Shown here in pieces: positions 886 to 5,318 of a stretch of 64,000 nucleotides of DNA (position 1 is its first letter; every line of letters begins with the position of its first letter). A model generated the notes under the pieces. It saw only the letters and a program-made list of their open reading frames with translations, ran no database searches and was not told the DNA's origin. A program made the position numbers and the translations under genes. Location: assembly GCA_027314645.1 (NCBI GenBank), contig DAHVAL010000006.1:256-64255 (forward strand), written 5' to 3'. The DNA comes from Nitrospirota bacterium. GTDB taxonomy: Bacteria > Nitrospirota > Leptospirillia > Leptospirillales > Leptospirillaceae.

Positions 886-2652
886 ATGAAAGCCGCCATC
901 TACGCCCGCAAATCGACCGACGACAACGACCGCCAGGAAGAGAGCAAGTCCGTCACCCGCCAGGTGGAACGGGCCACGGCCTATGCCGAGGCGAAGGGCT
1001 GGATCGTCTCGAAAGAAAACATTTATATCGACGACGGAATTTCCGGGGCGGAGTTTCAGAACCGTCCCGGCTTTCTCCGCCTCCTGACCCACCTCAAAAA
1101 ATTTGATGTCTTGATTATGAGCGAGCCGTCGCGCTTGGGTCGGGACATGTTGCGCAATGCCTACCACGTGGGAGAGATCCTCGATGCCGGGGTGCGGATT
1201 TTCTATTACCTCACGGATGAGGAGGAGAAAGCCGAAACCCCGGAGCAGAAGATCATGCTGACGCTCAAATCCTATGCTTCCGAGGTGGAGCGCCAGAAAG
1301 CCAGCCAGCGGTCACGCGATGCCCTGGAGCGTAAGGCGCAAAGAGGCTGCAACACCGGCGGACGGGTTTACGGCTATGACAATGTCTGGGTCTACCCCGA
1401 CGGGCGGCGGGTGATTGCCCCGTCCGGCCAGAAAGACGACGGGAAATCGCAGACGGAGTACCAGATCAACGAACCGGAAGCCGAGATTGTCCGGACAATC
1501 TTTCGCATGTACGCGGACGGACGGGGAGTGGGGACCATTGCCCGAACCTTGAACGGGGATCCCCGCCACCGGGAAAAATCCCTCCATTACTTCGATGGCC
1601 GGACACCGCCTTCTCCCTGGAAAGGGACGGGTTCCTGGTCCCCCTCCTCTGTCCGGGCGATTCTCCACAATGTCCGTTATACGGGCACGATTCCCTTCGG
1701 AAAACATCGAAAAATGTACAAACGGGGGACCGAGACACGGGTCAAGCAGGAGGAGTATCTCCTGATCGAGGCTCCCCACTTGCGCATCGTTCCGGACTCC
1801 CTCTGGAAGGAGGTCCGGTTGCGCCAGGAAGCCGAGAGGAAGACCTATCTCCTTCACACGAACGGGCAACGGTGGGGCGTTCCGGGTGTCGCCCGGGAGA
1901 GCCAGTACCTGTTGACCGGCCTGGCGCGTTGTGCCGGCTGCGGCGCCAACATCACCGTGGTCGGGGGCAAGAGCGGTTTTCCCGGCAAGCGTTGGACGAT
2001 CCATTACTATGGGTGCTCATGGCATCAGAACCGGGGATCGACGGTCTGTTCGAATGACCATCGGGAACGGATGCCGGTCGTGGATGGAGCTGTTCTGGAT
2101 GCCATCGAACGCCAGGTCCTCACTCCCGAAGCGATGGCCTATACCATCCAAAAGGCGGTTCGGTTGGTGATGGAGAAACAGCAGCAGAATCCGGAGAGAT
2201 CGCTGTCGATTCAAGGCGAAATCAAAAAACAGCGGGAAGAGTTGGACCGGTTTCTCTCACTGATTGCGGATGGCAACGCTCCAGAGAGTGTTTTGGCCGA
2301 GATCGGCAAGCGTGAAAGACACCTCGCGTTTCTGGAAAAGGGCCTGCAAGAGCTTCAACTTCCGATTCCCGGTGAGGGTGATCTGAGACGGATTGAAAAG
2401 AAATTACAGGAAGGAATCGGGCGGTTCAGGGAACTGATGGCTGGCGATATCCCGCGTGCGCGTCAGGCCATCAGGAAACTTCTGGCGGAACCGCTCACGT
2501 TTATCCCGGTGGTGGTTGAAGGCCGGAAGACTTATACCTTTGAAGGCCGGATGCGGATCGGACCGCTATTTTCAGGAGAAGAACAGGCAGAAGATGCGGG
2601 TGATATGGAATTGGCGTCCCCAACGGGATTCGAACCCGTGTTACCGCCGTGA
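886..2652 (+). CDS. large serine recombinase (site-specific integrase)
   Basis: A 588-residue serine recombinase that would catalyse excision and integration of the element. The ATG at 886 is chosen because AGGAGG ends seven bases upstream and the product then begins with the family's opening strand; the frame stays open further upstream but without family similarity. The resolvase domain has the nucleophile Ser10 in YARKST and the arginines of SRLGR (Arg83, Arg86). It is followed by the recombinase domain, a zinc ribbon with CAGC and later cysteines (about residues 350-390), and a coiled coil (about 445-500). The last 13-14 residues (from about 576) are read antisense through the tRNA-Glu gene, so the normal C-terminus depends on where the element has inserted. 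Confidence 0.93.
   Translation: MKAAIYARKSTDDNDRQEESKSVTRQVERATAYAEAKGWIVSKENIYIDDGISGAEFQNRPGFLRLLTHLKKFDVLIMSEPSRLGRDMLRNAYHVGEILDAGVRIFYYLTDEEEKAETPEQKIMLTLKSYASEVERQKASQRSRDALERKAQRGCNTGGRVYGYDNVWVYPDGRRVIAPSGQKDDGKSQTEYQINEPEAEIVRTIFRMYADGRGVGTIARTLNGDPRHREKSLHYFDGRTPPSPWKGTGSWSPSSVRAILHNVRYTGTIPFGKHRKMYKRGTETRVKQEEYLLIEAPHLRIVPDSLWKEVRLRQEAERKTYLLHTNGQRWGVPGVARESQYLLTGLARCAGCGANITVVGGKSGFPGKRWTIHYYGCSWHQNRGSTVCSNDHRERMPVVDGAVLDAIERQVLTPEAMAYTIQKAVRLVMEKQQQNPERSLSIQGEIKKQREELDRFLSLIADGNAPESVLAEIGKRERHLAFLEKGLQELQLPIPGEGDLRRIEKKLQEGIGRFRELMAGDIPRARQAIRKLLAEPLTFIPVVVEGRKTYTFEGRMRIGPLFSGEEQAEDAGDMELASPTGFEPVLPP
2612..2652. other. putative right attachment boundary of the integrated element
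   Basis: The 3' half of tRNA-Glu overlaps the end of the recombinase gene, which marks a junction between element (left) and chromosome (right). The exact crossover and the length of the duplicated core cannot be seen, because the other end of the element lies outside the window. Placing the boundary here is inference from the tRNA/integrase geometry. Confidence 0.45.
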
Positions 2653-2688
2653 AAGGGCGATGTCCTAGGCCGGCTAGACGATGGGGAC
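2612..2688 (-). tRNA. tRNA-Glu (anticodon UUC)
   Basis: Read on the minus strand, a seven-base acceptor stem GTCCCCA/TGGGGAC encloses an anticodon arm CGCC-CTTTCAC-GGCG with anticodon TTC and a T arm containing GGTTCGAATCC. CCA is encoded, with discriminator base G. The sequence closely matches the usual bacterial tRNA-Glu. The 3' end faces the recombinase, whose stop codon (2650-2652) lies inside the gene. This is the standard arrangement when an element uses the tRNA 3' end as its attachment site. The tRNA itself looks intact. Confidence 0.95.
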
Positions 2689-2794: not shown

Positions 2795-3352
2795 TTACGG
2801 AAATACAGTGGGGAGTTTTTCCCGAGGGGTCTGCGAAAGAAGAAGATTGGCCCGGTCTTTTTCGGAAACGATTCCCTCCTTGATCGGCCAATCGATCCCG
2901 ATCTGGGGATCGTTCCAGAGAATACCCCCCTCATCATCCGGGTCATAGAAATCGGTGCATTTGTACAGAAAGTCCGCGTTTTCGCTGATGACCTGAAACC
3001 CGTGGGCGAATCCTTCCGGAATGTACATCATCAGATGATTTTCCTCAGAAAGGACGGTCCCGAACCACCGGCCAAAGGTGGGAGACCCAGACCTTAAATC
3101 CACCGCCACATCGAACACCGCTCCCGCCACGACCCGCACGAGTTTCCCCTGGCCATGCCTTCTCTGATAATGAAGCCCCCTGGTCACTCCATGGGCCGAC
3201 CGGGAATGGTTGTCCTGGACGAAAAGCTGGGGCAAATCAATCCTGGCGAAGGTCTTGGCATGAAAGCTCTCCATAAAAAATCCCCGGGCATCCCCGTGCA
3301 CCTTCGGAGAAAGCACCTTCAAACCCTGAAGGAAGGTCTCCTTTATTTCCAC
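2795..3352 (-). CDS. rfbC: dTDP-4-dehydrorhamnose 3,5-epimerase
   Basis: Cytosolic epimerase of dTDP-L-rhamnose synthesis, acting on dTDP-4-keto-6-deoxyglucose made by RfbB. The 185 residues are the usual length of RmlC. Seen: the active-site segment RGLHYQ with catalytic His61, Lys70 further on, and the cupin strand [12 protein letters not shown]. It overlaps the end of rfbA by ten bases and is the last gene of an rfbB-rfbA-rfbC operon. The reductase gene rfbD, often present in such clusters, is absent here; the tRNA and integrated element follow directly. Confidence 0.95.
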
Positions 3353-4224
3353 TCCCCCTCCTCCATCGCCACCAGGTCCCGAAGATAGACGCCGTACCCG
3401 TTTTTCAGGGTCTCGGCCATGCGAAGGATCTCGTCCTTTCCGATATACCCCATCCGGAAGGCGATCTCTTCCGGACAGGCGACCATGATTCCCTGGCGAC
3501 GCTCGATCACTTCCATAAAAACGGCCGCTTCCAGAAGAGAATCATGGGTCCCGGTGTCGAACCAGGCCGTCCCTCGTCCCAAATTGCTGACCGAGAGCCG
3601 TCCTTCGGACAAATACAACCGGTTCAGGTCGGTGATTTCAAGCTCCCCGCGGTCCGAGGGAGAAAGCGACTTCGCACGCGCGACCACCGTTTGGTCATAA
3701 AAATAGAGGCCCGGGACGGCGTACTTCGAGGGAGGCTTCTTGGGCTTTTCCACGATGTCTATTACCTGGCCGTCAGGTCCGAAGGCCAACACCCCGTAGC
3801 GCTCCGGGTCCCGGATCGGAACCCCGAAAATCCTGGCTCCCTCTTGGATGGCCGCGGCATCCTTCAAGGTTCCCGAAAGGCCATGGCCGTAGAAGATATT
3901 GTCTCCCAAGCCCAGACAGACAGGACTTCCCCCGATGAATTTCTCGCCAATCAAAAACGCCTGGGCCAATCCTTCGGGACGAGGCTGCACCGCATACGAA
4001 AGGCTGATTCCCCACTGGTGCCCGTCCCCCAGAAGGCGCTCGAAGAGGGGCGTATCCTCCGGGGTCGAGATGAGGAGAATGTTCCGGATCCCGGCCAGCA
4101 TGAGGGTTGTCAGGGAATAATAGATCATGGGCTTGTTGTAAACCGGCATCAACTGTTTGCTCACGGCCCGCGTCAGCGGATAGAGCCGGGTGCCCGATCC
4201 GCCCGCAAGAAGAATTCCTCTCAC
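3343..4224 (-). CDS. rfbA: glucose-1-phosphate thymidylyltransferase
   Basis: Makes dTDP-glucose from dTTP and glucose 1-phosphate, the first step of dTDP-deoxysugar synthesis for O-antigen or exopolysaccharide. The frame is open for 341 codons, but GTG at 4224 is the likely start. It begins the family's first strand ([16 protein letters not shown], nucleotide-binding loop at residues 8-15), sits after AGGAGAAAGGGGG, and gives the normal length of 293 residues. GTG and the rfbB stop share the four bases GTGA, so translation is probably coupled. The [10 protein letters not shown] segment is also typical. Confidence 0.95.
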
Positions 4225-5318
4225 GCGCGTCCCCCTTTCTCCTGGCGGCCGACCCCTTGCCTTGTCCCGTCGTAACGCCCCCGGAGGCTTCTCCACCAAG
4301 GGCGGTTTTCCAAATACCACCGGACTGTCAGCTCCAAGGCCTCCTCGAAGGAATGGGACGGACGCCATCCCAATTCCGAACGGATTTTGGCGGCGTCGAT
4401 CTCATAGCGCCGGTCATGGCCCGGCCGATCCGGGACAGAGGCGACAAGCTCGGCATAGGACCCGCTCTTTCTCGGACTCAGGCGGTCGAGAATGTGGGTG
4501 ATCCGGGCAATCACCTCCCGGTTCGATCGGGGGTTATGGGCCCCGATGGCGTAGGTTTCCCCCGCCCGGCCCCTTTCGAAGACCCTCCGGACTCCTTCGC
4601 AATGATCGGGGGCGAAGATCCAATCGCGAATATTCCTTCCGTCCCCGTAGAGGGGGATTGGCCGCTCTTCGAGCGCCGACAGGATCACCGTCGGAATCAG
4701 CTTTTCAGGAAACTGCCAGGGTCCGTAATTATTGGAGCAATTCGTGGTCACCACCGGAAGGCCGTAGGTGTGGAAGTAGGCCCGGACCAAATGATCGGAG
4801 GCCGCCTTGGAAGCGGCATAGGGAGAATTCGGCGCATAGGGAGTCTTTTCTGTAAATGGGGGATCGTCCTCCCCGAGCGACCCGTACACCTCGTCCGTGG
4901 ACACATGCAGAAACCGGAAAGGGCGATCCCGCCCCGCCCCCTTCACATACCTCAGGGCTTCATCGAGAAGGATGAAGGTTCCTGTCACGTTGGTATCAAT
5001 GAACTCCGCAGGATTCTCGATCGAGCGGTCGACATGGCTTTCCGCGGCAAAGTGAAAGAGTCCGGTGGGTTGGACGGTGGCAAACAGGTCCCGGACCGCC
5101 TTGCGGTCCCGGATGTCTCCATGGACAAGGAGATGGCCCGGGTCATTTTTCAGGCTGTCGAGATTGGCGAGATTGCCGGCATAGGTGAGGAGGTCGAAGG
5201 TCACCACAGGGACCCGTCCCTCCCTCCGAACGGCGTGGACAAAATTCGAGCCGATAAATCCCGCCCCTCCTGTCACGATCCACCGTTCCTCTTCCGGGCG
5301 AGGATCCTGTTTTTCCAA
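4221..5318 (-). CDS. rfbB: dTDP-glucose 4,6-dehydratase
   Basis: NAD-dependent short-chain dehydrogenase-like enzyme converting dTDP-glucose to the 4-keto-6-deoxy sugar. Visible are the Rossmann loop TGGAGFIGS (residues 16-24), the STDEVYGS segment, the catalytic YAASK pair and the sugar-binding [12 protein letters not shown] region. Length is 365 residues, slightly long because of a basic C-terminal tail. The start codon is TTG, preceded by AGGGGA. First gene of the rfbBAC operon; it ends in a four-base overlap with rfbA. Confidence 0.95.

Follow-up and report, generated by a model that had tools for sequence, protein, structure and literature searches.

A serine recombinase gene that ends inside tRNA-Glu in a Nitrospirota genome, and a probable exchange of its C terminus on integration

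That a serine integrase gene can overlap its own attachment site is known in principle from DsiB and the rumA ICEs. In the ssrA islands of Dehalococcoides, the CcrB homologue DsiB has a 3′ end that always overlaps a 20-bp tmRNA-derived direct repeat; its stop codon lies outside the island, and the authors propose that full function requires the circular form or an adjoining island (McMurdie et al. 2011, PMC3146451). Excerpts of that paper term the DsiB end divergent and its stop codon ‘unclear’, and these excerpts describe no conserved tail (PMC3146451). In streptococcal rumA ICEs, attR lies inside the serine integrase gene (PMC4701971). The target there is protein-coding, unlike the tRNA and tmRNA genes used by the family presented below, and we liken the two by description only.

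The SSV integrase is a tyrosine recombinase. In SSV-type integrases and in myxophage Mx8 IntP, the integrase gene spans attP (PMC4701971, PMC4383910). Mx8 IntP exchanges a C terminus of 112 residues for one of 13 residues and is less active in its integrated form; it is a tyrosine integrase, unlike the serine integrase studied here (PMC4701971). In mycobacteriophage BPs, attP lies within an open reading frame (ORF) and integration removes a C-terminal ssrA-like degradation tag from the repressor; the BPs integrase also bears a C-terminal proteolysis signal (PMC4557955). The attP of BPs is in the repressor gene, whereas in the present family it would be in the serine integrase gene, where a role in degradation is guessed from an Ala-Ala ending. 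For tRNA genes, the Islander study of 2014 knew of no serine integrases (PMC4383910). A further paper (PMC12884075) draws on the TIGER/Islander collections, which list serine and tyrosine integrases with their att sites and may already contain serine integrases that use tRNA genes. All of these papers are cited here from excerpts. In the open-access literature that we searched, we met no account of serine integrases that target tRNA genes and lose a conserved tail, and a broad family of this kind appears to be new.

Here we describe a large serine recombinase from a Nitrospirota genome whose reading frame runs into a tRNA gene on the opposite strand. The window, by which we mean the whole stretch of DNA analysed, comprises 64,000 nucleotides (nt) (C66:256–64255, in a draft of 69 contigs and 2.04 Mb). 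We consider it probable, from sequence comparison, that this ORF encodes the integrase of an element inserted at the 3′ end of tRNA-Glu(UUC), that attP lies inside the integrase gene and that integration swaps the C terminus of the enzyme.

The recombinase and its overlap with tRNA-Glu(UUC)

The features of the window that bear on this reading are as follows.

1–885, no strand: element end upstream of the integrase (right-hand end of the insert), with two small ORFs (65–478 and 405–686)
886–2652, plus strand: large serine recombinase (integrase), 588 amino acids in its integrated form (Pfam, PHROGs and model; Resolvase, Recombinase, zinc ribbon and long helices)
2611–2652, plus strand: codons of the last 13 residues and the stop, of which the overlap 2612–2652 is tRNA antisense
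2612–2631, no strand: predicted attachment core of 16–20 nt, placed by comparison with homologous mapped elements, whose cores are in some cases just 12–13 nt long; crossover point not located
2632–2652, plus strand: predicted host-derived part of the integrase C terminus and its stop, from mapped relatives
2612–2688, minus strand: tRNA-Glu(UUC), anticodon TTC, the probable target (attB) gene, intact beside the element (ARAGORN)
2795–5318, minus strand: host right flank, three genes that we take to be rfbC, rfbA and rfbB, in the same order after tRNA-Glu in six congeners

The recombinase ORF starts with ATG at 886 and stops at 2650–2652. The original prediction placed this stop inside the tRNA gene, and the ORF coordinates agree with it directly, together with the tRNA calls of ARAGORN (2612–2688) and Rfam (2615–2688, minus strand). 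The two genes lie on opposite strands and share 41 nt including the stop (2612–2652). Residues 577–588 are wholly encoded by the tRNA gene and residue 576 partly, its first base (2611) lying outside, which makes 13 residues where 13 or 14 had been predicted. An intact tRNA gene with an integrase beside it, one of the features by which tRNA/tmRNA genomic islands are recognized, is present.

The protein follows the domain order of large serine integrases: a Resolvase catalytic domain (PF00239, E = 6.1e-27), a Recombinase domain (PF07508, E = 1.1e-19) and a zinc ribbon (Zn_ribbon_recom, PF13408, E = 2.5e-11), all above the Pfam cut-offs. It also matches a PHROG integrase family (E = 3.6e-83). Residues S10, R83 and R86, which we take to be the catalytic serine and arginines, are invariant in 18 aligned proteins; in a wider alignment of 31 proteins S10 and R83 are again invariant and R86 is conserved in at least 90%. 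The predicted structure has a mean pLDDT of 83.8, falling below 50 for residues 564–588, that is, up to the C terminus. Its best PDB matches by Foldseek are complexes of serine integrases with DNA (E = 3.5e-19 for one with att DNA), with Bxb1 and PhiC31 among the next. TM-scores against these serine integrases are modest (0.23–0.51), presumably owing to domain orientation; the modelled fold matches theirs. The NCBIfam families CcrB and CcrC are significantly similar over most of the protein (E = 1.9e-31 and 2.4e-22), but the scores of 109 and 79 bits stay below the equivalog cut-offs of 900, and these recombinases use a different target. From its family membership, the enzyme would be expected to recombine attP with attB. 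Comparison of the small ORFs at 65–478 and 405–686 with Pfam, PHROGs and NCBIfam gave no match under the thresholds applied, and a search of the relatives’ loci gave no convincing relative (best E = 0.004).

Recurrence of the overlap among relatives

Entry into a tRNA gene recurs in relatives of this recombinase. We searched 395 genomes from the phylum at the protein level (E ≤ 1e-15) and obtained 62 matches in 42 of them, and at 29 of the 40 places examined among these matches, the window included, the recombinase enters an opposite-strand tRNA or tmRNA gene. An alignment scan of a named genome collection gave 79 loci (from the best 80 of 82), in Nitrospirota, Acidobacteriota, Pseudomonadota, Myxococcota, Gemmatimonadota, Rokubacteria and others. 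The two sets overlap, so their counts are not additive. Among these 79 loci (best 80 of 82), 49 enter a tRNA or tmRNA gene on the opposite strand at its 3′ end, 44 with the stop codon inside it, and none has a same-strand tRNA gene near the stop; the overlap is therefore beyond chance. The targets of the 49 (best 80 of 82) are tRNA-Glu (30), tRNA-Ala (6), tmRNA (3), tRNA-Ser (3), tRNA-Met (3), tRNA-Leu (2), tRNA-Arg (1) and one unassigned. At the remaining 30 of 79 loci (best 80 of 82) there is no tRNA at the stop; some of these are fragments or cut by a contig end, and L262, L264 and L266 are unexplained. A single-protein scan for close relatives found none among viral contigs or genome contigs.

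The original prediction would have been refuted by recombinases lying away from tRNA genes and sharing the same ending, and none was seen among the 79 loci (best 80 of 82). Loci L224, L250 and L252 have a similar ending without an ARAGORN tRNA, yet they read a partial or contig-cut tRNA copy. At tRNA-Glu itself the recombinases enter in all three reading frames, with overlaps of 22, 41 and 57 nt that give different peptides and stops. We had considered conservation of the tRNA-encoded peptide itself, and these three frames at one tRNA rule it out; the tRNA-derived peptide is therefore not the conserved feature.

In a tree of 68 recombinases, targets follow clades (20 changes versus a mean of 33 after shuffling), the tRNA-Ala and tRNA-Leu groups requiring one change each. 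The window protein clusters with gammaproteobacterial and betaproteobacterial relatives, the nearest of which is 52% identical and also lies at tRNA-Glu. At L029 (G037), about 39 nt from the 3′ end of tRNA-Met are tandemly duplicated within the recombinase reading frame.

The other end of the elements and an in-frame tail

In 16 elements, a copy of the tRNA 3′ end lies left of the recombinase on the same contig, about 4–31 kb away. The shared core measures 12–20 nt in these same-contig cases and 12–22 nt over all 26 pairs that we assembled, and cores below 12 nt would have escaped the search. These copies bear on the prediction that 2612–2652 is an attachment junction with the element to its left: the tRNA 3′ end as attachment site and the leftward position of the element are borne out by relatives, and the extent is not, the core in relatives being shorter (corresponding to about 2612–2631 in the window). 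Because the core in relatives falls short of 2612–2652, the stop codon and last residues in the window would be host DNA acquired by integration.

We joined the circular junction in a script, taking the recombinase up to the core and adding the sequence to the right of the left copy. Read in the recombinase frame, all 16 same-contig elements continue for 21–31 codons from the start of the core to a stop, so that the tail is visible directly in these relatives. Of these tails, 12 end in Ala-Ala and 14 in Ala, Val, Gly or Leu followed by Ala, against 0 of 32 in the wrong frames. When ten further pairs are added, whose integrase and left end lie on different contigs and were paired by genome and frame, the counts become 17 and 22 of 26, against 0 of 52 in the wrong frames. 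The tail frame tracks the recombinase frame in all three frame classes. The exceptions among the 26 are G401 (same contig), G411 and G413, which lack an Ala-ending tail, and G251, which ends in VAV. Within tails, pN/pS is 0.45 in frame versus 1.16 and 1.15 out of frame, from seven non-independent pairs. Apart from their Ala-Ala end, tails are poorly alike between clades; the Ala-Ala end itself recurs across phyla.

The left-end search gave 68 matches, of which 39 were examined first, 17 were recombinase-side copies or already in the set, and 12 were examined later. Outside the count of 26 stand 24 extra short-core matches. One is a second copy in G402, nine had been discarded before the counting (L170, L342, two in L346, L360, L362, L363, L191 and L208) and fourteen were added afterwards, namely the 12 late matches and two from another search. 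With all 24 included, 18 of 50 tails end in Ala-Ala and 25 of 50 in Ala, Val, Gly or Leu followed by Ala. The second copy in G402 has a tail ending in VA. The AA endings of the two L346 matches fall in a different frame from the one that the known recombinase of that genome uses. Genome G373 holds several recombinases, and its left ends L405 and L406 match the frames of two different ones: the tail of L406 ends in GFVKVA in the frame of the L101 recombinase, and that of L405 ends in EAA in the frame of L102, another recombinase there, and not in the frame first tried. L405 and L406 look like real left ends, and most of the rest of the fourteen look like chance pattern matches. When up to 10 kb to the left of each of the 49 tRNA loci was searched for 11-nt cores, five matches appeared, all five with an Ala-Ala tail in frame. 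Three were already known, and the search supplied locus L257 (G411) with a same-contig left end that has an AA ending; the earlier count had used another contig.

A left-end candidate in G134, which belongs to a distant tRNA-Met group, has a tail without Ala-Ala. L246 and L248 were tried as circular contigs and rejected, their ends showing no overlap, and a second tRNA-Ala-like match in G128 (contig C6) gave a long open frame and was taken as unrelated. Copies of 46–48 nt (L175, L102/L250 and L335) were set aside as tyrosine-type ends by length only. Partial tRNA copies of about 46–48 nt occur at L224, L238, L250, L175 and L335, directly after the serine recombinase end in the first three. As such copies resemble tyrosine-type left junctions, serine and tyrosine elements may be stacked in tandem at these sites. 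Just outside the left junctions in G140 and G245 lie remnants of recombinase 3′ ends (L166:5031–5460 and L167:2509–3131), a sign of repeated stacking at one tRNA. At L234 and L267, the recombinase end and core give way to a sequence that is similar in both and differs from tRNA and from the usual tail; it may be the left end of an element of another type.

Phage and plasmid records, the former assumed to represent the free form, offer natural counterparts. The recombinases of phages RR1-A (Rhizobium) and Mae-JY30 (Microcystis) are 26% identical to that of the window over about 80% and end in QIILGRFVA and FRFGVIAA, respectively, with a tRNA detected at neither. Before its tail, RR1-A carries 14 nt identical to the start of the tRNA-Met gene in which a 59.6%-identical relative stops, and that relative sits on a Rhizobium tumorigenes replicon. 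To judge from these sequences, the pair looks like the same tail exchange seen from both sides in real sequence. Four other alphaproteobacterial relatives on large plasmids have endings that are tRNA-Met antisense peptides, with tRNA-Met detected in three. Of the eight RR1-A relatives from plasmids, a single one stops inside tRNA-Met, another ends in a tRNA-Met-like peptide and a third in AA; the other five fit neither pattern. The Mae-JY29 enzyme ends in RRRA, and none of eight phage serine integrases of other groups ends in Ala-Ala.

A probable exchange at the tRNA gene, and the target site in the genus

Because the core lies inside the recombinase frame and continues into a short tail when the ends are joined, attP in the relatives falls within the integrase gene. 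On the circle, the gene would run from the integrase body through a core identical to the last 16–20 nt or so of the tRNA gene into a short tail supplied by the other end of the element, placing attP about 20–30 codons before the true end. Recombination with the tRNA gene would split the integrase gene, whose true tail would stay behind at the element’s far end, on the left; the tRNA would be rebuilt, and the integrase frame would continue into tRNA antisense until a stop there. The recombinase would thus enter the tRNA gene because the element inserts there, and the C terminus in the window, a product of this frame exchange, would be a by-product of integration. Two forms of the enzyme are envisaged, a tailed one made from the circle and a chromosomal one whose end derives from the tRNA, and excision would restore the tail.

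An accidental overlap would arise if a recombinase had lost its own stop beside a tRNA gene that is not an attachment site and simply read on. Any neighbouring ORF that ends close by could be read into antisense tRNA, and the second att site of the window element was not found in the draft; against the 49 of 79 related loci (best 80 of 82) that enter an opposite-strand 3′ end with none on the same strand, the partial tRNA copies at the other end of relatives and targets that follow clades, we regard such an accident as extremely improbable. Delivery of the element by another, tyrosine integrase, with the serine recombinase merely its last gene, seems improbable too, if a little less so. This alternative gains from the tyrosine-type element at the same tRNA-Glu in G002 (assigned by eye, with a 49-nt core), from the 50-nt core in G011 and from the 46–48-nt tRNA copies after some serine recombinase ends, but the cores of mapped serine elements are shorter (12–20 nt where both ends share a contig) and form part of the serine integrase frame, and the choice of target follows the tree of these integrases. 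Comparison with relatives accordingly sides with the proposal that the integrase here is the serine enzyme and not a tyrosine one, although the tRNA 3′ end had been described as a classic tyrosine-integrase target.

What the exchange does is a separate matter, and any effect of tail loss on the stability or direction of the enzyme is hypothetical. The frequent Ala-Ala ending suggests, by analogy, an ssrA-like degradation signal (the tmRNA of G275 encodes ANQELALAA); since it resembles the end of the ssrA tag, and since integration of BPs removes such a tag, this is a reasonable guess. We tentatively propose that the position of attP acts as a built-in switch, in which the integrase of the circle would carry an Ala-Ala degron and integration would replace it by a tRNA-antisense tail, changing the lifetime or directionality of the enzyme without a separate regulator. 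It is conceivable, and we would give it comparable weight, that the swap is real but functionless, attP being placed in the integrase gene for compactness and the tail tolerating replacement. The 25 C-terminal residues are unstructured in the model and tails beyond their Ala-Ala end are poorly alike between clades, as this would lead one to expect, whereas the signs of in-frame purifying selection (from few, non-independent pairs) and the recurrence of the Ala-Ala ending across phyla favour a function.

Among the known systems closest to the proposed exchange is DsiB, also a large serine recombinase, whose 3′ end overlaps a tmRNA-derived repeat; in the window the overlap is with the presumed target tRNA gene, and the repeat itself was not found in the draft. 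DsiB targets tmRNA in one genus, whereas the present family spans several phyla and targets and the window element uses tRNA-Glu; the likeness is one of description. Unlike in the excerpted account of DsiB, the missing 3′ piece was found in frame in relatives of the window integrase. Integration at ssrA, by which DsiB-type islands are defined, is replaced in the window by tRNA-Glu, and tmRNA is the target in 3 of 79 loci (best 80 of 82). For DsiA and the module genes of such islands, the roughly 2.9 kb of element visible in the window offers two small ORFs without a family match. The question of the true integrase end, raised by the DsiB study in 2011, would have its answer in the mapped relatives in a tail at the far element end, regained in frame on circularization. 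The family reaches across Nitrospirota, Acidobacteriota, Pseudomonadota, Myxococcota and other phyla, and the annotated proteins of integrated copies would have C termini made by the host tRNA. Serine integrases taken as tools from prophages or islands may therefore be without their native tail, and the tail could serve as a marker for the left ends of such islands.

Contig C66 starts 255 bases to the left of the window, with a run of N (a scaffold gap) at C66:246–255 within the element, so about 2.9 kb of the element is visible left of the tRNA. A left direct repeat of the tRNA fragment was not found in the draft (BLAST to E = 10; 15-mers with one mismatch), the contig stopping about 2.9 kb left of the tRNA. 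A 10-mer search of the same genome gave 11 matches, of which two are tRNA copies and the other nine lack an Ala-Ala tail in the recombinase frame. As neither the left end nor the tail of the window element was found, we infer from its relatives that it has such a tail.

The only other copy of tRNA-Glu(UUC) in the draft forms the last 77 bases of C40 (3,907 bp), which are identical to window positions 2609–2685. It is a near-complete tRNA (74 of 77 nt), and its left flank differs from that of the window. In six congeners with a complete tRNA-Glu(UUC), the three genes of the right flank in the window come next to it as well. In one of these, G009, the bases before tRNA-Glu match the C40 flank at 84% identity over 58 nt. 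C40 reads, by its sequence, as the left side of an empty site in part of the sequenced population, and the 77-base overlap between C40 and C66 looks like an assembly-graph join. Alternatively, C40 could hold a further, complete tRNA-Glu gene, or it could mark the left-hand junction of an element carrying a whole tRNA. It stops exactly after the 77-nt common stretch, with nothing visible beyond, but its left flank resembles that directly before tRNA-Glu and the three genes in G009, and the draft holds only two UUC tRNA copies; we consider this alternative unlikely.

None of the 13 other genomes of the genus yielded a close recombinase; the one in G011 is distant (28%). In G002, an element whose integrase looks tyrosine-type by eye (L035:3713–4747) sits at tRNA-Glu, and the 3′ end of the tRNA recurs as a 49-nt copy on another contig (L036:4014–4062), so that in this case two unrelated integrase types use one tRNA-Glu within one genus. 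The site in G011 is also occupied, with a core of 50 nt; over 300 nt, its left flank and that of the unoccupied site in G005 are 98.7% identical (L040, L042).
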